Of a DNA stretch of 64,000 nt, positions 44,012-54,356 are shown piece after piece. The stretch's first letter is position 1; every line of letters begins with the position of its first letter. The stretch covers positions 62,001 through 126,000 of the forward strand of contig JAWCQO010000001.1 of assembly GCA_038869735.1 (NCBI GenBank). The letters are read 5' to 3'. The notes under the pieces are model-generated. The model saw only the letters and a program-made list of their open reading frames with translations. It was not told the origin of the DNA and did not search any database. The position numbers were made by a program, and so were the translations under genes. This DNA comes from Candidatus Anstonellales archaeon (lineage in GTDB: Archaea > Micrarchaeota > Micrarchaeia > Anstonellales > CG1-02-47-40).

Positions 44012-46297
44012 TTATTTTTCTTTCCCTGCAATGCTTTTTGGCCTAAAACTTTTCATAATCAGAGTGTTTAGAACCACGCTAAGTGAGGAGAGCGCCATTG
44101 CACCTCCTGCTATAACCGGGGAAAGAGTAAATCCTGTAAATGGATAGAGAACCCCCATAGCAATAGGTATTCCGACTGAATTATAGAAGAACGCCCAAAA
44201 GAGATTTTGTTTTATTTTTTTCATAGTATAATCTGAAAGTTCTATTGCAGTTAAAACGGCACGCAAGTCATTTTTTACTAAAACTACACTCCCACTTTCT
44301 ATCGCAATATCAGTGCCTTCTCCAACAGCAATTCCAACATCAGCTTTAGCAAGCGCGGGGGCATCGTTGATTCCGTCACCAACAAATGCTACCTTTGAAC
44401 CAGTGGCCTGCAACCTTGATACTTCTCTTGCTTTATGTTGGGGTGGTACGCCCGCTAAGACTTTTTTGATTCCAACTGTCTTTGCTATGGCCTTCGCAGT
44501 ACGTTCGTTATCGCCAGTTATCATCAAAACATCAATGCCCATTTTTTGCAAACTTGATATGGCTTGAGGGGAATGCTCTTTTATTGTGTCTGCTATTGCT
44601 ATTAAACCTAATAATTTGCTATCCGAAGCTACGGCCACAACGGTTTTGCCGCTGTTTTCAAGTTTGTGCATTTCTCTTTCTGCTGCATGGCTTAGTGAGA
44701 CATTTCTTTTTTTCATAAATGCAGCATTGCCAACGATTATTTCGTGATTCCCAATTTTTGTTGATATGCCATATCCGGGTATTACTTTAAATGATGATGT
44801 CTTGAGTAAGTTGATTTTAAGTTTCTTTGCTTTGTTTATTATAGCTTCTCCAAGATGGTGCTCTGATTTCTTTTCGGCGGAAGCTGCGATAAGTAAAAGT
44901 TTTTTGCTTGTTATGCCGAAGGGAATTATATCAGTAACTTCTGCCTTACCTTTAGTTATTGTTCCTGTCTTATCGAGAACTATTTTTTTGATCTTATGCA
45001 TTAACTCAAGACTCTCTGCGTTTTTGAAAAGTATTCCGTATTCGGCCCCTTTGCCGGTCCCCATCATCACCGCAGTTGGAGTTGCAAGGCCCATAGCACA
45101 TGGACAGGCAATTATCAGCGTAGAAACAAAGATTGTAAGTGAGAAGACAAGTTTTTCTTTTGCAACAAAAAACCAGTATGAAAAGGACACGAGTGAGAGG
45201 ATAAGGACGGCCCAAACAAAATTTCCTGCAACAATATCAACAAGTTTTTGAATGGGGGCTTTTGAGCCTTGTGCCTCCTCAACTAGTTTTATTATTTGCG
45301 CCAACAGCGTATCTGAGCCTACCTTAGTGGCTCTAAATTTAATAAACCCTGTTTTATTTATTGTGCCGCCTATAACAATACTTCCTTTCTTTTTGTGGAT
45401 GGGCATGCTCTCTCCAGTCACCATGCTTTCATCAATGCTCGAAGAACCATCAATTACGACTCCATCAACAGGAATCTTGCCTCCTGGCTTCACTAGGATT
45501 ATGTCGCCGGGTATGACACTACTAATGGGGACTTCTATTTCTTTTCCATTTCTAATTATGGTAGCCGTCTTTGGTTGTAAACCTATTAGCCGTTTTATTG
45601 CCTCAGAAGTCCTGCCTTTTGCTATGGATTCTAGATATTTACCGACAACTATAAATGAAAGTAGAAGAGCGGCAGTTTCAAAATATACTTCACCTTCAAT
45701 AAGCCCAATCGTTACTACGGCACTATAAAGATAAGCAGTACCTACTCCGATTGCCACAAGACTTTCCATTCCTGGCATTCGATTTATAAGAGAACGAATT
45801 CCTCTTACAAAAAAATCTCTGTTTAGATATAGTACCGGAGTAGAAAATAGAAATTGGAGTATTGCAGAGTTTTCAGATATTAGCGGCGGATATTCTAAAA
45901 GGATGATTCCTTTGACCATCTCTGGGAGGCCGAGTATTAGGGTTGGAAGTGAAAGGGTAAAGGAGTATATTACCCTTAACCTAAGCTCTGCTATTTCTCG
46001 TTCACGCTGAATTTTTTCTTTGTCGCGGGCTTCCGAACCATAAAGAAGGGAGGAGGTACCGCTATCCTCACTTTTGTGTTGGCTTTCGTCTATTTCAGCC
46101 TTGTACCCAAGAAGGTCAATAGTTTTTTTGAAATCGTCAGGACTAGTTTTCTTCTCATCGAATTCAACTATTGCATTATTAGTAGCAAAATTTACAACAG
46201 CCGCTTTCACGCCATCAATTTTTTTGAGTCTTTTTTCAATGTTTGTGGCGCACGAAGCACAGTGCATCCCTAAAATGTAGAATTTTATTTTTTTCAT
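44012..46297 (-). CDS. copA: Copper-transporting P1B-type ATPase
   Basis: Copper exporter. One N-terminal HMA domain carries GMHCASCATN (Cys13/Cys16). The transmembrane metal site is Cys398-Pro-Cys400 in IIACPCAMGLATP. The phosphorylation motif is LDKTGTITKGKAEV, the SEHHLGEAI motif binds ATP, and GDGINDAPALAKADVG is the hinge. Eight membrane segments in the standard P1B order are visible. A CPC motif with a single HMA fits Cu(I) export. GGAGGG precedes the ATG. It is the fifth gene of a leftward copper operon. Confidence 0.96.
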   Translation of the reverse strand: MKKIKFYILGMHCASCATNIEKRLKKIDGVKAAVVNFATNNAIVEFDEKKTSPDDFKKTIDLLGYKAEIDESQHKSEDSGTSSLLYGSEARDKEKIQREREIAELRLRVIYSFTLSLPTLILGLPEMVKGIILLEYPPLISENSAILQFLFSTPVLYLNRDFFVRGIRSLINRMPGMESLVAIGVGTAYLYSAVVTIGLIEGEVYFETAALLLSFIVVGKYLESIAKGRTSEAIKRLIGLQPKTATIIRNGKEIEVPISSVIPGDIILVKPGGKIPVDGVVIDGSSSIDESMVTGESMPIHKKKGSIVIGGTINKTGFIKFRATKVGSDTLLAQIIKLVEEAQGSKAPIQKLVDIVAGNFVWAVLILSLVSFSYWFFVAKEKLVFSLTIFVSTLIIACPCAMGLATPTAVMMGTGKGAEYGILFKNAESLELMHKIKKIVLDKTGTITKGKAEVTDIIPFGITSKKLLLIAASAEKKSEHHLGEAIINKAKKLKINLLKTSSFKVIPGYGISTKIGNHEIIVGNAAFMKKRNVSLSHAAEREMHKLENSGKTVVAVASDSKLLGLIAIADTIKEHSPQAISSLQKMGIDVLMITGDNERTAKAIAKTVGIKKVLAGVPPQHKAREVSRLQATGSKVAFVGDGINDAPALAKADVGIAVGEGTDIAIESGSVVLVKNDLRAVLTAIELSDYTMKKIKQNLFWAFFYNSVGIPIAMGVLYPFTGFTLSPVIAGGAMALSSLSVVLNTLIMKSFRPKSIAGKEK

Positions 46298-46312: not shown

Positions 46313-47233
46313 CTATATGTATGTAAGCGGTCCTTTTGGTCCGGCTATCATTATGATGGAAGCAGCCAGAAAAAGAGATGCAGAAAAGTAGAAGAAGTCA
46401 GAAAGCCCTGAGTTATGATGCTCCTTCTTTGCAGCACCCACTTCTCGATACATCATATAACTTAAACCAAATATTACAATAACACATAGTGAGAAGAAGA
46501 TATAAAGAAATGGCAGAAGGTTATCAGAGAAGAGCATAATTGAGGTCATTGCACCCATTGGTCCTGACATCATTCCCGCCATTATTCCCTCCATCGCCCC
46601 CATAACTCCACAAAAACGCCCTAAATTGACGCCTAACCCTATCCCTATAGTCATCCCAACTAGTGAACCTATAAACATACCGTTTGTTGCACCTACGAGA
46701 AGGCCGAACATTGAACCGCAAACCATACCCATTGTCATTCCTATCATCATACCATTTGTGCAGGACAAACCTTTGCGATAGCATGACATATGGTAATAAG
46801 CGAATGCAGTAGAGATTGATGCGAAGATAGCAAGCAGAAGAAAAGGGAGATAGGCTGAATCGAACATCCCTCCAAAGTATCCCAAAGCACCTAAAAAGAT
46901 AAGTGTTAGTAATGAAACGAGAGCATTAATAAGGAGTCTGCGTTCGACTTCTAAAGAAGCATCCCTACCATCAACAAGACGCATGCAATAATCTTTTACA
47001 AACGCCCAGTTGCCGCGAGTCACAAAAGATTCTTTATTAGTCTCAATAAAGCCTTTTAGCGCAAGAGCTTCTTTCAATGATGAAAAGTCATTTTCGCTTG
47101 AGTAGAAAACAACTATGCCGGAGTCGTAATCTATGCTCTTTAGTTCTGCATTATGGTCCCGTGCAATTTTCTCTAAAAGTTTCTCGCAACTGCTGCACGA
47201 AAGGCCGGTTAAATGCAAAGTTAAATCAGGCAT
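46313..47233 (-). CDS. HMA-domain protein with Gly/Met-rich membrane region
   Basis: A 306-residue protein of unusual design. Residues 1-65 are a heavy-metal-associated domain with GLSCSSCEKLLEKI. After a polar linker come two membrane segments (about 110-155). Then, at about residues 160-235, there is a continuous glycine/methionine repeat region: NGMMIGMTMGMVCGSMFG, GATNGMFIGSLVGMTIGIG, GVMGAMEGIMAGMMSGPMG. Two or three more membrane segments follow. The Met-rich helices could form a copper path, as Met clusters do in known copper transporters. I know no named family. It lies between CopZ-like and CopA genes, so a copper role is strongly suggested but not proven. Confidence 0.75.
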   Translation of the reverse strand: MPDLTLHLTGLSCSSCEKLLEKIARDHNAELKSIDYDSGIVVFYSSENDFSSLKEALALKGFIETNKESFVTRGNWAFVKDYCMRLVDGRDASLEVERRLLINALVSLLTLIFLGALGYFGGMFDSAYLPFLLLAIFASISTAFAYYHMSCYRKGLSCTNGMMIGMTMGMVCGSMFGLLVGATNGMFIGSLVGMTIGIGLGVNLGRFCGVMGAMEGIMAGMMSGPMGAMTSIMLFSDNLLPFLYIFFSLCVIVIFGLSYMMYREVGAAKKEHHNSGLSDFFYFSASLFLAASIIMIAGPKGPLTYI

Positions 47234-47237
47234 AGGA

Positions 47238-47459
47238 TCACTTTTTGAGTAATGGAATTTTAGCTACAGTATAGCCTTCTTTTTCTATTGCGACTATTGC
47301 TGACTCAATAGCATCTTTACTTTTGGCATCAAATCTTATCTCACCTTTTTTGGAATCTACGCTGATGTTTGATATCCCTCCTATTTCTGAGAGAGCGTCT
47401 TGAAGAAGAAGTTCGCAAGAGCGGCAGTGAAGCCCAACTACTTTCAAAACTTCAGTCAT
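47238..47459 (-). CDS. CopZ-like HMA copper chaperone
   Basis: Single heavy-metal-associated domain of about 73 residues. The metal loop is GLHCRSCELLLQDAL; the rest has the beta-alpha-beta pattern ISVDSKKGEIRFDAK and ends KEGYTVAKIPLLKK. It should carry Cu(I) or a similar metal to CopA. The ATG at 47459 is preferred over 47486 because GAGGTGA lies in front and the start overlaps the stop of the previous gene (ATGA). Leu-Leu-Leu after the second cysteine is a little unlike classical CopZ. Confidence 0.85.
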   Translation of the reverse strand: MTEVLKVVGLHCRSCELLLQDALSEIGGISNISVDSKKGEIRFDAKSKDAIESAIVAIEKEGYTVAKIPLLKK

Positions 47460-47935
47460 TTTTTCATCACCTCGCAGTTGCTGCATTGCCTTTTTAGGAG
47501 AAAGTGGATGGAGAGCGCAAGAAAGACTATGCTAATTAATCCTAAGGATAGGTTAAAACCAGAGATAAACGCTGCGGCAGAACCCAGGCCTGCCCACATT
47601 AGAAGGGGGGGATAACAGAAAGGGCATGATGTTGTAAAGAATGCTAAAGTGCTACCAATAACAGACAGTTTTAGTGGAAGAGTATGTTTCTCTTTGTTAG
47701 AGTGGTTGTAGAAGAGGAGAGTAGCATTAAGAGAAATGAGAAGAGAAATGCAAAATATTATGAGCAATAGCAATGGGTCTGTAAAGGGATTTATCTGCAG
47801 TGGTAAAGGAACTATAAAGTTGGAAGTTATTGAGAGTATAATAAAAAATATGAGAAAGAGGAGACTAAACAAGAGAGTATATTCTCTTTTTGATAGTATG
47901 TTCCGTAGGTATAGGATAGAATGTGATGCGCTCAT
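47456..47935 (-). CDS. Four-helix membrane protein with CPFC motif
   Basis: A 159-residue protein with about four membrane segments (roughly residues 21-42, 52-76, 88-115, 125-150). FFTTSCPFCYPPLL lies at the start of segment 3; a CxxC next to a membrane helix resembles the metal-binding pairs of MerT-like and other small metal or redox membrane proteins. The tail ends QCSNCEVMKK with another CxxC facing the cytoplasm. It overlaps its neighbours at both ends (ATGA type). Function is probably metal transfer or disulphide chemistry within the copper operon; this is inferred from the cysteines and position. Confidence 0.7.
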   Translation of the reverse strand: MSASHSILYLRNILSKREYTLLFSLLFLIFFIILSITSNFIVPLPLQINPFTDPLLLLIIFCISLLISLNATLLFYNHSNKEKHTLPLKLSVIGSTLAFFTTSCPFCYPPLLMWAGLGSAAAFISGFNLSLGLISIVFLALSIHFLLKRQCSNCEVMKK

Positions 47936-48651
47936 ACGACCACTAGTTTGCCTCCCCTAAACATTCTCATGCCGCAATTGTACTCGAAGGTACCTTCTCT
48001 GTTTGGAATAAAATCGACTATCTGTTCCTCACCGCTTTTTGAAATTGCACGGACGTTTAAACCATATATGACGAGCTGTCTTCCACAACCTGCATTCTTA
48101 TCGGCTGAGAAATGCAGCCTGACCGGTACTCCCTTTTTTACTTCTATTCTGTCTTTGTCATATCTCCCTGTCGAAAGCGCCCTAATATAGATATCCTGTA
48201 CTTCTTTATTACCGGATGTTCCAGTAACATAAGAGGAGGGAGAGGTGTTTGATGAGGGAGAGCGGATAGTGTTTAGAGTTGTAAGGGATGCATCAAGAGG
48301 ACATGCTCCAACATTCCCACTTTCGCATGATGGTTGCGACGAAGATGACAGGATACCGGCAACAAGATAAATCAGAAGAAGGATTGCAAGGGACGAAGCT
48401 AGTATAAAGGGGAAGGTATTCATTTGTGCATTTATTTGAGCGGTTTTTGCCATTTGATTATTTAGTTGAGTAGTTGCTTTGTTTTCTGAGGCTTTTTCAT
48501 TTCTTGTCTCTTGATCGCAGCCACAACCAAAAGAGCTCCTGGGAATCTCGTTTGGTTCTTCTTGTGGTGTATTGCTTTGGTTTACAATGGGTTCAATATG
48601 GACCACCTCTATGTTAAATTTATTAAATTTAATTGCTGTTAGATGTATCAT
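47932..48651 (-). CDS. Membrane-anchored cupredoxin-like protein
   Basis: Three parts. The cytoplasmic N-terminal 75 residues are polar and contain FGCGCDQET, a possible metal-capture loop. A membrane segment spans about residues 80-102. The extracellular part has a low-complexity Ser/Thr linker and a C-terminal cupredoxin-type domain (about 150-239), with DRIEVKKGVPVRLHF, NAGCGRQLVIYG and FEYNCGMRMFRGGKLVVV as probable copper ligands (Cys, His-less, Met). It is the first gene of the leftward operon, opposite the winged-helix regulator. A periplasm-side copper buffer or donor is likely. Lack of an obvious His ligand is unusual. Confidence 0.75.
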   Translation of the reverse strand: MIHLTAIKFNKFNIEVVHIEPIVNQSNTPQEEPNEIPRSSFGCGCDQETRNEKASENKATTQLNNQMAKTAQINAQMNTFPFILASSLAILLLIYLVAGILSSSSQPSCESGNVGACPLDASLTTLNTIRSPSSNTSPSSYVTGTSGNKEVQDIYIRALSTGRYDKDRIEVKKGVPVRLHFSADKNAGCGRQLVIYGLNVRAISKSGEEQIVDFIPNREGTFEYNCGMRMFRGGKLVVV

Positions 48652-48716: not shown

Positions 48717-49187
48717 ATGGAAAACATAAATAAAGTAATAGCTGGGATTTTAGTTACGGCATTCTTTATTTTTCTTATTACGGCGCTTTCCTTTGTTTAT
48801 GTAGCATCAATCGAAGGTGCGGAGATACCAAGTCTTTTTCAGCCGTTTCTCCAGTATCATGTTGAGTTCATGATAATTATGGGGCTTGTGGGTTTCGTTG
48901 CTGGGATTGTTATTTATAATAATCTTATATCGACCATTCAGAGGCAAAAAAAGACAAATGTTGGGATAGTGATGAAGTTCCTTGAAGACAAAGAAAGGGA
49001 GATTTTGGAGCTGCTCTTAAAGAGAGACGGGATGACAACACAGAGTGAAATTTCAAGACTCCCTGGAATGAACAGATTAAAGGCTCACCGCATCGTAAAG
49101 AAACTTGAAAAAAGAGGAATAATATACATAGAAAAAAACGGAAAAGTGAATATGGTTCGCCTTATAGACGAACTGAAAGAAAAATGA
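48717..49187 (+). CDS. Membrane-tethered winged-helix regulator
   Basis: Two membrane segments (about residues 5-30 and 48-70) precede a C-terminal winged helix. The latter reads REILELLLKRDGMTTQSEIS, then RLPGMNRLKAHRIVKKLEKR with a wing ending IEKNGKVNMVRL, matching the archaeal MarR/COG2512-like DNA-binding type. Such proteins sense the membrane or outside and act on nearby promoters. It diverges from the copper operon with 65 bases between them and is the obvious candidate regulator. The extracellular loop between segments is short (ASIEGAEIPSLFQPF) and has no Cys, so the signal is unclear. Confidence 0.8.
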   Translation: MENINKVIAGILVTAFFIFLITALSFVYVASIEGAEIPSLFQPFLQYHVEFMIIMGLVGFVAGIVIYNNLISTIQRQKKTNVGIVMKFLEDKEREILELLLKRDGMTTQSEISRLPGMNRLKAHRIVKKLEKRGIIYIEKNGKVNMVRLIDELKEK

Positions 49188-49510: not shown

Positions 49511-51820
49511 ATGAATAAAACTATGAAAGGGAGAAGCTTCGGGTGGATTAGTTCATTTTTAGTTTTTATTTTTTTAGTCTGTTTTTCTTTTGGCTATGAG
49601 CCAACTTCCTTTTCTTTTGTCGTGGGAGGAGTAGTAAATGTAAATTCAACATTTTTTTTAGATATTGTCGCAAATAACAGCAACTATGTAGGAGGTTGTT
49701 CTGATAGAGTGAACGCCAACAGTAGCCGTGTCCTTGTCAATTCAAGTGGAAATTTTATTGCGCTTTCGGATTATAACATTTCAGAACGCTATAATGCTAG
49801 CGGAATTAGCGGGACTGCCCGCCTACAGATTAAGATTTCTGCATTGGGTATTTACAATATAAGCTTGAATACGACAGGATGTGAAAACGTCTCACCATAT
49901 ACCAGCACAACCATCTCTCTCTATGGAGGCAGATTTTTTGGCTATGTTTGGAATGGGAGTATAGGAAATCCATTTTTGGGAGCGGAAGTAAAATTATCTG
50001 GAAACTATGGAAATGAAACTGCATTTACGGATTCAGATGGATATTACCAGTTTTTTGATGTAGTACCCTCTAATGGATATATGATATCAGCAAATGCAAG
50101 CGGGTATGAATCAAACCAGAGCTGGAATCTTACTCTAGTTGAAAACGAAAGCAAGAGCATAAATTTTACACTAAAAAGAATTAGTGGAGAAGATGTGACA
50201 AATGGTTCTCTTTTTGGTTTTGTACTAAATTCAAGCAGCGGTTATGGAATAGGCGGTGCAAATCTCAAAATGGATAACTCGACTCTAAACATAACACTAA
50301 AAACCAATACTTCACAGAATGGAAGCTACTCCTTTTTCAATATGATGCCTGGATTATATCTGCTTTCGGTCACTGCTACAGAATTTGAGGGCCACTCTAG
50401 AATTGTGTTAATTGTAGGGGGTTATAATTATCTCAATATAACACTCAACGAAAGCAAAGGTGGAAGAATTTTTGGTTATGTAAGAAATGTAAGCAACAAT
50501 GCAAGTGTTCCAGATGCACTAATAAGGATATCAAAAAACAGATATTTAGTAACTAAAAATACAGGTAGCAACGGGTATTATTATTTTGATAATCTTACTG
50601 CCGGCAACTACACCTTGCTTGTAAATGCTACAAAGTTTATATCACGCACGTTATACTTTGAATTAAAAAATTCTTCAAGCGCTGTAGAGCTTAACATTTC
50701 ATTATTTACAATTAGTCTTTCAAACTTATCAAACGGAGTTTCATGTGAAAATGATGATCAGTGTGCAAGCGGAAATTGTTGCAATAGAGTATGTACTGCT
50801 CTGGATTGCAATGTAAGCGCAGGGGGAACTTGTAGAGAAAGTGTTGAGTGCGAAGCTGGGCTTTCCTGCTGTTACGGAACCTGCCAATTGCCTCCGTGTA
50901 TTCAGCTCAATGTTCCTGAAGGAGGTGCATGTAACAAAACTTATCAGTGCATAAGAGGACTTGTGTGTTGTGGGGGCTTTTGCAAAAGCGGCGAGTGCGT
51001 AGAGGACGTTGAAGTTGAGGTTGAAAAAACAGAAGTAATAGTGCTTGGGTTCGAAAGAATAGGTGTCAAGAGAAAAGTAATCTCAAATAAGAGCATGCAA
51101 AGAAGTGAAGTCTCTCTTAATATTATAAATATAGAAGAAGAAGCGATTTATAATGTAGAGCTTTGGGAGACCGTCCCGTCAAATGTTGCTGGAGTGGGTA
51201 TTAGTGAAATAGAGCCAAAGGAGCATTACATACTTAATGGAAGCGGCGGAAGCAAGATCATTATATGGAGATTTTCTGTCCTTGAGCCTCAAAAAGAGAT
51301 AAGTATACGATACAAAATAAACAAATTTGTTGATGATGCAAGCGGCTTTTCTTCTTTTGGGAAGAGATATGAAACAGTGACTCCTGAAAAGATTAAGATT
51401 GCAAGGCTAATTGCGCCAGCAAGGATAAATGTGGGAAAACAAGTTACACTCGCACTGAAGGACATTGATGGTACGCCTATCCCTAATGTTGGGATTATAA
51501 TTTCTGCACCAAACGGACAGAATATGATACTCATCTCAAATGACGATGGAATGGTGAAATATGTAGCGAGCATAGAAGGCGAGTATACGTATTCGGTTGA
51601 AGGATGGCAACTTATAGAATCTGTAAGAAAAACGATGTCTGTAAAGGAATACGTTGAACATATAAATATAAGTTCAGGGATAAAGGTTGGTCAGATACAG
51701 CTAAACGCAAGCGAGATTTTTTCGTTTGGACTCGCTGGATTAGTGTTAGTTTTTATAGCTGCAGGTATTGTTCTTGTTTTGATTATTCTGTTTTATTATA
51801 TTTATTTGAAAAAAAAGTGA
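49511..51820 (+). CDS. Large cell-surface protein with carboxypeptidase-regulatory-like repeats
   Basis: About 769 residues, secreted and tail-anchored. The signal peptide begins at MKGRSFGWISSFLVF (49523), with 49511 as the alternative start. After a first N-rich domain come three repeats of the carboxypeptidase-regulatory/Cna-B-like fold, each opening like GRFFGYVWNG, GSLFGFVLNS and GRIFGYVRNV and containing a TDSDGYYQFFD-type turn. Then a Cys-rich stretch, with three CxxxxxCASGNCC-like units, resembles a Dickkopf or EB-type module. Next is a C-terminal domain pair (PARINVGKQVTLALKDIDGT) and a membrane anchor ending KKK. Dozens of N-x-S/T sites suggest heavy glycosylation. The frame is open further upstream, but that part lies antisense to the TRAM gene. 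Confidence 0.8.
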   Translation: MNKTMKGRSFGWISSFLVFIFLVCFSFGYEPTSFSFVVGGVVNVNSTFFLDIVANNSNYVGGCSDRVNANSSRVLVNSSGNFIALSDYNISERYNASGISGTARLQIKISALGIYNISLNTTGCENVSPYTSTTISLYGGRFFGYVWNGSIGNPFLGAEVKLSGNYGNETAFTDSDGYYQFFDVVPSNGYMISANASGYESNQSWNLTLVENESKSINFTLKRISGEDVTNGSLFGFVLNSSSGYGIGGANLKMDNSTLNITLKTNTSQNGSYSFFNMMPGLYLLSVTATEFEGHSRIVLIVGGYNYLNITLNESKGGRIFGYVRNVSNNASVPDALIRISKNRYLVTKNTGSNGYYYFDNLTAGNYTLLVNATKFISRTLYFELKNSSSAVELNISLFTISLSNLSNGVSCENDDQCASGNCCNRVCTALDCNVSAGGTCRESVECEAGLSCCYGTCQLPPCIQLNVPEGGACNKTYQCIRGLVCCGGFCKSGECVEDVEVEVEKTEVIVLGFERIGVKRKVISNKSMQRSEVSLNIINIEEEAIYNVELWETVPSNVAGVGISEIEPKEHYILNGSGGSKIIIWRFSVLEPQKEISIRYKINKFVDDASGFSSFGKRYETVTPEKIKIARLIAPARINVGKQVTLALKDIDGTPIPNVGIIISAPNGQNMILISNDDGMVKYVASIEGEYTYSVEGWQLIESVRKTMSVKEYVEHINISSGIKVGQIQLNASEIFSFGLAGLVLVFIAAGIVLVLIILFYYIYLKKK

Positions 51821-54356
51821 AGAATACTTTTTTTCCTATTTCATTTGTAACAAAATAAACAAGAACCAAAAAAAGTATAATTAAAAGAAGCGTAGGGTTT
51901 GGAGGGGAAAACCTGAAAATTTCGGCTGTTATTGGCGTATAGATGAAAGCAAACGTAAGAATTATTGCAAAAAGCGAAGTGATGATCAATGAAAGGGAAG
52001 GTTGGCTTTTCCAGGCAGGGAGTGTTGTGCGGAGGGAGAAGATTATCGTTATCTCTGTGAGAATGGAGAGTAAGAACCAAGACGTTCTGAACTGTGATAC
52101 TGGGGTATTAAGGAAAAGCAACATGAGAAGAATTAAGAGAACATCAAAAAATGAGCTAATGAGCCCAAAAAAGAGCATAAAGCGAAAAATCAATGAGTTA
52201 TCCCATCTTTGAGGTTTTTTAGTGTATGATGAATCAACATTGTCTGTAGATATTGCAAACATTGGAACGTCGGATATGAGATTTGTAAGAAGTATTTGTG
52301 AAGGGAGTAAAGGGATGAAAGGAAGAATGACTGACGAAAGGCTAACGGTCAGCATATTTCCAAGATTTGCGCTAACCGTATAACGGACATATTTGAAAAT
52401 GTTTCCAAAGATTTTTCTTCCCTCTTCAACGCCTTCTGAGATTATATCCAAACTTTTTTGTAGGAGGATTATATGAGATGCCCCCTTTGCTACGTCTGCT
52501 GCGGTATCAACGGATATACCAACATCAGCTGCCCGGAGAGCAGGAGCGTCATTTATTCCGTCGCCCAAAAAACCAACAACATGTCCGTTGGAGCGCAAAG
52601 CCTCAACAATTTTTAGTTTCTGATCAGGGGTAACGCGTGCAAAAACGTCATATTTTTCCACAGCCTCCAAGAGTTCTTTTTCGCTCATCTCTGAAATTTC
52701 GCTTCCAAGGATTATTCTGTTGTCTTTTAGTGGAAGACCAATGTCATTGCATAGTTTTCTCGTGACATTTGGGTCGTCACCTGTGAGAATCTTCACTTGG
52801 ATGTTGAGTTGATTTAAGCGTTTTATCGCATGTGAAGCAGTCGCTTTTGGGGGATTTGAAAAAAGAACAAAGCCTATGAATATGAGGTTCTTTTCGTCGT
52901 GAAGGGAATAATCGGATTTGGACTCTATCTCGCTATATGCAACTCCTATTGTACTTAACCCATCTTTTGTATATTGAGAGATTGCGTTCAATACCTCCTC
53001 TTTTTTCTTCTCAACTGGGAGGACAGTTGACTTCATCTTGATTCTTGAACAGACGTCTAAGACGGATTCCGGCGCTCCTTTTGTTATTATATATTTCTTT
53101 GCTCCCTCTTTGACTATCACCGACATTCTTTTTCTTTTGAAATCAAAAGGAATCTCATAGAGCTTTTCAAATCTGGATATATCTGCACCGGCCTTTTTTC
53201 CTTCCTTTTTTATTGCAATATCTATTGGGTTTCCACGAATTCTTGTTGAACCAACCGCTGAGTTACAGAGAAGAGCGTATTCAAAGACATCATGATTGTC
53301 TTGCATATCAAGGTCAACATACTTGAAGAAGCGAAGTCCCTCTTCAGTAAGAGTCCCTGTTTTATCAGTACAAAGAACATCCATGTTTCCTAAATCTTCT
53401 ATTGCTGCCAGCTTTTTTGTAACAACCTTATTTTTTGCAAGTTTTAGGCTACCTACTGAAAGCGCTATAGTAATTATTGCTGGAAGCGCTTCTGGAGTTA
53501 TGCCAACAGCTAAGGCAAGCGCAAAGAGGGCTGAGTCAAGAAGAGGATTTTTCTCTCCATGACCTGCCAAATAGTTTGTAATAAATACAAAAAGAGTGAT
53601 TGCAGCCATTAACTTCATAAGCATAAATCCAAACTTTCTTACACTAATCTGAAAATCGGATTCGGGCACACGCGAAGAAAAGACTGCAGTAGTCTTCCCA
53701 AAAAACGTATTATTACCAGTGAATACAACTACGCCTATGGCATAGCCTTCAAGGATCGTTGTTCCCATAAAGAGTCCATTTGATATTTCTTGAGGAGTGT
53801 TTGATGATGGGGGGGAGGGACGGACGTTTTTTTCAACCGGTCTTGATTCTCCAGTTAAGATACTTTGGTCTACAATAATGCCTGACCTTGACTCCAAAAT
53901 ACGCAAGTCAGCTGGGACTATGTCTCCAAGACCGACAGAGACGACATCGCCAGGGACAAGCTCGGAGGAGGATATTTGGAACTTCTTACCTCCTCTTATT
54001 ACGGTAGCTTTATAGCTGTAATATTTTTTGAGTTCGGACAAAACCTTTTCTGCTTTGTATTCTTGAAAGAAGCCAAAAACGACGCTTGCAAGGATAAGTA
54101 AAAAAATCACAAGAGAATCAAGTAGGTCTCCAAGGAAGATAGATATGAGGCACCCAAAAAGAAGTATTAGAATGGGGGGAGTCTTTAGTTGAGATAGCAG
54201 GATTTCTTGGCTGTTGCGTCTATCTTTGTCAGGAATTATGTTTGGTCCGTATTTTTCCAGTCTATTTTTTGCTTCTTTTTCGGAAAGACCGTATGGGGAG
54301 CTTGCAAGCTCAGCTAATAGAGCATTCGCCTCTAAAGACCATATGGTTGAGTTCAC
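51783..54356 (-). CDS. P-type ATPase, magnesium-type (P3B-like)
   Basis: An 857-residue cation pump. The N-terminal cation-ATPase domain has GLSEKEAKNRLEKYGPN. TGES is in ILTGESRPVEKN, the phosphorylation site is VLCTDKTGTLTEEG, the ATP-site lysine is in YIITKGAPES and the hinge is LGDGINDAPALRAADVG. Membrane helix 4 has GITPEALPAIITIALS, close to the TPEMLP form of MgtA, and there is no HMA domain or CPC motif, so magnesium or a related divalent ion is the best guess. A proton or calcium pump is the alternative. The start is a GTG at 54356 near a TATA-like element. It overlaps the converging surface-protein gene by 38 bases. Confidence 0.85.
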   Translation of the reverse strand: MNSTIWSLEANALLAELASSPYGLSEKEAKNRLEKYGPNIIPDKDRRNSQEILLSQLKTPPILILLFGCLISIFLGDLLDSLVIFLLILASVVFGFFQEYKAEKVLSELKKYYSYKATVIRGGKKFQISSSELVPGDVVSVGLGDIVPADLRILESRSGIIVDQSILTGESRPVEKNVRPSPPSSNTPQEISNGLFMGTTILEGYAIGVVVFTGNNTFFGKTTAVFSSRVPESDFQISVRKFGFMLMKLMAAITLFVFITNYLAGHGEKNPLLDSALFALALAVGITPEALPAIITIALSVGSLKLAKNKVVTKKLAAIEDLGNMDVLCTDKTGTLTEEGLRFFKYVDLDMQDNHDVFEYALLCNSAVGSTRIRGNPIDIAIKKEGKKAGADISRFEKLYEIPFDFKRKRMSVIVKEGAKKYIITKGAPESVLDVCSRIKMKSTVLPVEKKKEEVLNAISQYTKDGLSTIGVAYSEIESKSDYSLHDEKNLIFIGFVLFSNPPKATASHAIKRLNQLNIQVKILTGDDPNVTRKLCNDIGLPLKDNRIILGSEISEMSEKELLEAVEKYDVFARVTPDQKLKIVEALRSNGHVVGFLGDGINDAPALRAADVGISVDTAADVAKGASHIILLQKSLDIISEGVEEGRKIFGNIFKYVRYTVSANLGNMLTVSLSSVILPFIPLLPSQILLTNLISDVPMFAISTDNVDSSYTKKPQRWDNSLIFRFMLFFGLISSFFDVLLILLMLLFLNTPVSQFRTSWFLLSILTEITIIFSLRTTLPAWKSQPSLSLIITSLFAIILTFAFIYTPITAEIFRFSPPNPTLLLIILFLVLVYFVTNEIGKKVFFTFFSNKYNKTE

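Follow-up and report, generated by a model that had tools for sequence, protein, structure and literature searches.

A stretch of 64,000 nucleotides from the genome of Candidatus Anstonellales archaeon (the whole stretch is hereafter called the window) encodes, within a copper operon, a protein in which an HMA domain is joined to a seven-helix membrane domain rich in Gly and Met (the GM protein and GM domain; Table 1). Sequence comparison indicates that this membrane component is a new, undescribed family, set in a copper gene module of a known kind. The GM domain very probably handles a soft metal, and there is about an even chance that it serves as a through-membrane conduit or relay for Cu(I)/Ag(I) between the cytoplasmic HMA domain and an external cupredoxin, following a Ctr1-like principle while being unrelated to Ctr1.

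Table 1 Features of the GM gene and of the surrounding copper genes in the window, with the basis of each assignment
Feature	Position	Strand	Basis and remarks
CopA-type P1B copper ATPase	44012..46297	-	15 nt downstream of GM gene; TIGR01511 5.5e-181
GM (HMA-GM) protein gene	46313..47233	-	306 aa; N-terminal HMA and seven-TM Gly/Met domain; ORF, 58 homologous loci, AF2 models
HMA domain, residues 1-67	47033..47233	-	Atx1/CopZ fold match; PF00403 in 6/14 homologues
CxxC metal site of HMA domain, C13-C16 (C13-S-S-C16)	47186..47197	-	translation
TM1 (90-120)	46874..46966	-	AF2 model
TM2 (126-151)	46781..46858	-	AF2 model
Gly/Met core, TM3-TM5, residues 158-233	46535..46762	-	conservation in 56 sequences; AF2 helices H158-184, H186-208, H210-233
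TM3 (158-184): C158, M162, M163, M166, M170 at predicted cytoplasmic end	46682..46762	-	AF2 model, conservation
TM4 (186-208), Gly zipper, few Met	46610..46678	-	AF2 model, conservation
TM5 (210-233): Met ladder M211, M214, M218, M222, M226, M229, M233, acidic E215	46535..46606	-	Met-face statistics, AF2, conservation
TM6 (239-265)	46439..46519	-	AF2 model
TM7 (277-297)	46343..46405	-	AF2 model
CopZ-like HMA protein	47238..47486	-	4 nt upstream of GM gene; PF00403 2.9e-9; start may be internal ATG 47459
Small TM protein, CPFC motif, no family match	47456..47935	-	present in 19/58 loci
Membrane-anchored cupredoxin, first operon gene	47932..48651	-	PF13473 7e-10
Divergent membrane-tethered winged-helix protein (two-TM), candidate regulator	48717..49187	+	PF13412 6.1e-7; in 36/58 loci

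The original prediction had assigned an HMA domain to this protein, and its N-terminal domain is indeed a true HMA domain of the Atx1/CopZ type. It carries the CxxC site, its AF2 model has the element order E-H-E-E-H of the ferredoxin-like beta-alpha-beta-beta-alpha fold, and its best fold match is Atx1 (4a47; Z 9.6, rmsd 1.6 over 61 residues), with CopZ proteins next. The PF00403 profile gives no match to the GM protein of the window at E 2, and its matches among the homologues reach 1.3e-8 at best. Since the HMA domain is optional, being absent from several homologues, the membrane domain represents the core of the family.

A repeat of Gly and Met within membrane helices had likewise been proposed, and the 78-residue segment 158-235 contains 16 Met and 19 Gly, spread over three consecutive helices of the AF2 model. 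Gly occupies every fourth position (161, 165, 169 and so on up to 209), a run of 13 consecutive occurrences that was reached in 0 of 100,000 segment shuffles. In an alignment of 56 sequences from DPANN archaea and Chloroflexota, whose homologues are 22-58% identical to the GM protein of the window, the Met positions are kept throughout: M163, M166, M222, M226, M229 and M233 are invariant (56/56), and M162 (55/56), M218 (52/56), M170 and M211 (50/56 each) nearly so. Position 215 is acidic in 54 of these sequences, and C158, which adjoins the Met cluster of TM3 at its predicted cytoplasmic end, is conserved. Across the same alignment Met makes up 21% of TM3 and 29% of TM5, as opposed to 2-9% of the other five helices. 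TM5 has its Mets on a single helix face (mean vector 0.81, equalled by about 0.05% of random placements), and in the AF2 monomer model this face extends along the whole helix, across the full membrane. As other hydrophobic residues (Leu, Ile or Val) would suffice for packing, this conservation suggests that the Mets act as thioether ligands for a soft metal.

Chance composition was rejected as the source of the Gly/Met pattern, as its positions are retained across 56 diverse sequences; the matches that composition does produce are Gly-Val repeats lacking Met. A repeat at the DNA level was also rejected, TRF giving one array only (28 bp x 2.3 copies). The first locus scan relied on short peptide patterns (including GMMIGMTM), which could favour relatives that keep Met, while most homologues were gathered by whole-sequence or profile searches of genomes rather than by such patterns.

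The full-length AF2 model, built from 14 sequences, has a pLDDT of 86 and a pTM of 0.79; that of the membrane domain alone, built from 56 sequences, shows seven TM helices with a pLDDT of 95.3 and a pTM of 0.91, both being models of monomers. By mean charge, the loops at 150-158 and 204-211 are positive and the one at 232-240 is net negative, while that at 183-188 is close to zero and that at 262-278 mixed. Together with a cytoplasmic HMA domain, these charges point to an N-in, C-out topology, in which TM3 and TM5 would run outwards from the cytoplasm; about one positive charge on the C-terminal tail speaks slightly against it. In Foldseek, the best PDB match of the membrane domain has E 0.13 and a TM score of 0.17, and the best hit of the fold search (Z 6.3, rmsd 8.6 over 130 residues) is within noise for helical bundles. 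As no significant match was found in either the PDB or the viral fold libraries, the modelled fold is possibly new relative to these collections.

Membership in a known transporter family, a possibility already raised with the original prediction, was not found by Pfam and NCBIfam profiles or by fold searches: the GM membrane domain has no match among Pfam, NCBIfam or PHROGs families, and no published description of it was found in the literature searched. A PDB profile match to an 'ARID domain-containing protein' (23fj; E 7e-4 over 67 Gly-rich positions) was taken as compositional and set aside. A parallel in principle is Ctr1, which takes up copper via a Met filter and combines Met rows (MxxxM) for Cu(I) with glycine-zipper packing in its membrane helices (PMC6437178). 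Both features recur in the GM protein, where MxxxM lies in TM3 and TM5. However, Ctr1 is a eukaryotic homotrimer of three-TM subunits, with MxxxM in TM2 and Met triads as its filter, whereas the GM protein, for which seven TM helices are predicted, has ten conserved Mets in its core as well as an HMA domain, and the Ctr1 profile (PF04145) matches none of 14 family members at E 1. With the CopA/CopZ system the GM protein shares the type of HMA domain as well as the neighbourhood of both genes, yet it lacks ATPase domains and its membrane domain is unrelated by profile search.

The operon runs in the order cupredoxin, small CPFC-motif TM protein, CopZ-like HMA protein, GM protein and CopA; neighbouring genes overlap, or are spaced, by no more than about 30 nt. 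The CopA translation carries the CPC, YN and MxxSS motifs, which we take to be those of P1B-1 pumps. Promoter and terminator scans performed no better than shuffles. The association with copper genes extends to the homologues: in counts that are approximate because a few of the 58 loci represent the same genome reached by two routes, a CopA ORF lies within 5 kb of the GM gene in 46 loci, a separate cupredoxin is found in 45, a CopZ-like HMA protein also in 45, and in 32 the GM domain carries a fused HMA domain. CopA or cupredoxin is present in 53/58, several of the negatives being on short contigs. Some other features of this neighbourhood deserve mention. The small CPFC protein (47456-47935) is perhaps a thiol or metal partner, and the winged-helix protein (48717-49187) is a candidate membrane-tethered copper-responsive regulator. 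In the operon cupredoxin (P0002), a Cys-rich GCGC stretch (48517-48528) that precedes the TM anchor and is predicted to face the cytoplasm is a possible extra metal site. A second P-type ATPase, without an HMA domain, is encoded close to the copper operon (51783-54356).

Gene fusions connect the GM domain to the same partners. In Chloroflexota it is fused to YHS domains (PF04945, 3.2e-11 and 1.3e-10), some of these genes having no CopA nearby, and one Chloroflexota locus (L059, 4705-6564) encodes in a single chain a SurA-like N-terminal segment, the GM domain and a cupredoxin (PF13473, 3e-15), with a CopA gene adjacent. Two archaeal loci (L098 and L102) also display a GM domain fused to cupredoxin (PF13473, 1.3e-16 and 4.1e-14). 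With profiles built for this analysis, such cupredoxin fusions occur in at most 4 of the 58 loci, that of L100 being without Pfam support. They sit in separate parts of the tree, which requires three changes, indicating that the fusion recurred or was lost. A similar arrangement exists in bacterial DsbD_2 proteins (sulfite exporter TauE/SafE by annotation), which are fused to the same type of cupredoxin and have genes for CopA or YHS and for HMA proteins as neighbours; as in GM loci, a membrane domain is combined with a fused or adjacent cupredoxin, an HMA protein and CopA. The two differ in that the membrane domains have no detectable homology, the DsbD_2 profile (PF13386) matching none of 14 GM members and hhalign giving a probability of 0.1-0.2% against two DsbD_2 proteins, and in that the GM domain occurs more often with a separate cupredoxin and a fused HMA domain. 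With its cupredoxin fusion and gene cluster, the GM domain thus occupies the DsbD_2 slot without detectable homology to it. Of the original idea of a metal channel or store attached to a metal-capture domain, the link to copper is much strengthened by the CopA/CopZ/cupredoxin operon and the cupredoxin and YHS fusions, while the capture domain is optional; Cu(I) binding, membrane passage and its direction, a pore or a store, and oligomerisation are what we infer.

In the proposed conduit or relay, Cu(I) would be presented by the HMA domain in the cytoplasm, or by the CopZ-like protein of the gene just upstream, at a cytoplasmic mouth formed by C158 and M162/M163/M166/M170 of TM3 and by E215 of TM5. 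The ladder M211-M214-M218-M222-M226-M229-M233 of TM5 could then relay the ion across the membrane to the external cupredoxin, a product of the same operon that in some homologues forms one chain with the GM domain. The Gly zippers would let the helices pack closely about the Met path, either in one subunit or between subunits. The likely role is copper efflux or detoxification. One objection is that the CopA of the operon already offers an export route for Cu(I), which would make another exporter superfluous; the GM protein could instead import, buffer, sense or chaperone the metal. More tentatively, and with somewhat less than an even chance, the family would be an archaeal and bacterial Cu(I)/Ag(I) channel or carrier of a new class, having a seven-TM Gly-zipper fold of its own and a transmembrane Met ladder, loaded by HMA and emptied by cupredoxin, and evolved independently of Ctr1.

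The main rival, although unlikely, is an accessory copper relay that would not by itself carry the ion through the membrane: like DsbD_2, the GM protein would pass Cu(I) to or from CopA, or anchor and load the cupredoxin at the outer face, its Mets being exchange sites without a continuous path. The identical architectural and operon slot, the transport route already supplied by CopA and the repeated fusion to cupredoxin are all consistent with this, but the conserved Met face covers the full length of TM5 rather than one side, and the hhalign comparison detects no homology to DsbD_2.

Distinctly less probable is a membrane-embedded store or buffer, in which the many Met sites (at least 10 per subunit in the core) would hold several Cu(I) for release to CopA at need. 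Csp copper storage proteins are four-helix bundles lined by thiolates (Cys) that store Cu(I) and are mostly cytosolic (PMC10155185). They resemble the GM protein in having several Cu(I)-type ligands inside a helix bundle; however, these ligands are Cys in Csp and would be Met in the GM protein, where Cys is scarce, the Met pattern is fixed and partner proteins are linked to it on either side of the membrane. The Met face of TM5, which reaches from one membrane surface to the opposite one, makes a conduit or relay a better fit than a store.

A purely structural Gly-zipper protein, such as an MscL-like oligomeric pore in which Met is a flexible packing residue and copper incidental, appears improbable. 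Other Gly-zipper proteins exist, and the 13 Gly at an exact spacing of four, together with a weak match to MscL (PF01741; E 0.14, 12.9 bits, below the cut-off of 27.4), speak in its favour. The match of YMGG to the GM family (E 0.035) is also below its curated cut-off, and although both families share the regular GxxxG spacing, neither has an invariant Met pattern. Against this reading, six positions are invariantly Met and not Leu, Ile or Val, operon and fusions are all metal-related, and Gly-Val repeat proteins without Met score by composition only.

There is very little to commend a copper importer for cuproenzymes: the Met filter of Ctr1 does serve uptake (PMC6437178), and the direction of transport by the GM protein is itself only a proposal, but the operon holds a CopA-type exporter and no COX1 was found in the genome of the window, 0 of 59 genomes (this one and 58 relatives) passing the family cut-off. 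Supply of a heme-copper oxidase is therefore unlikely here, which favours efflux or detoxification.

To our knowledge, little has been established about the passage of Cu(I) across prokaryotic membranes beyond P1B ATPases and RND pumps, or about metal handling in DPANN archaea. A widely conserved family that combines an invariant transmembrane Met pattern with copper partners is a directly testable candidate, and allows the Met-filter principle of Ctr1 to be compared with an independent case.

The GM gene is present in a single copy in the genome of the window, in 24 of a set of 59 genomes made up of itself and near relatives, and in 51 of 295 genomes of the same phylum (E 1e-10), with homologues in further DPANN records (Micrarchaeota, Nanoarchaeota, Pacearchaeota and Woesearchaeota). 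In Bacteria, five clear cases were identified among 298 genomes of one Chloroflexota class; beyond Chloroflexota, the search was a single scan of genome contigs with patterns derived from the query, so that the bacterial breadth found is a lower bound. Plasmids yielded no relatives by tblastn with either the GM protein or the Chloroflexota core, and none of 149 pattern matches in viral contigs was confirmed. Weak matches in Chloroflexota genomes (E 1e-6 to 1e-3) were rejected as Gly-Val repeats and not homologues; many Chloroflexota reading frames (L039-L058) consist of low-complexity Gly-Val tetrad repeats that mimic Gly-zipper profiles. Finally, four loci (L095, L096, L097 and L103) form a short, divergent subfamily of 151-176 aa without HMA, located near CopA or a CPFC-type protein, in which M170 and M211 are lost and the TM5 Met ladder is mostly kept.
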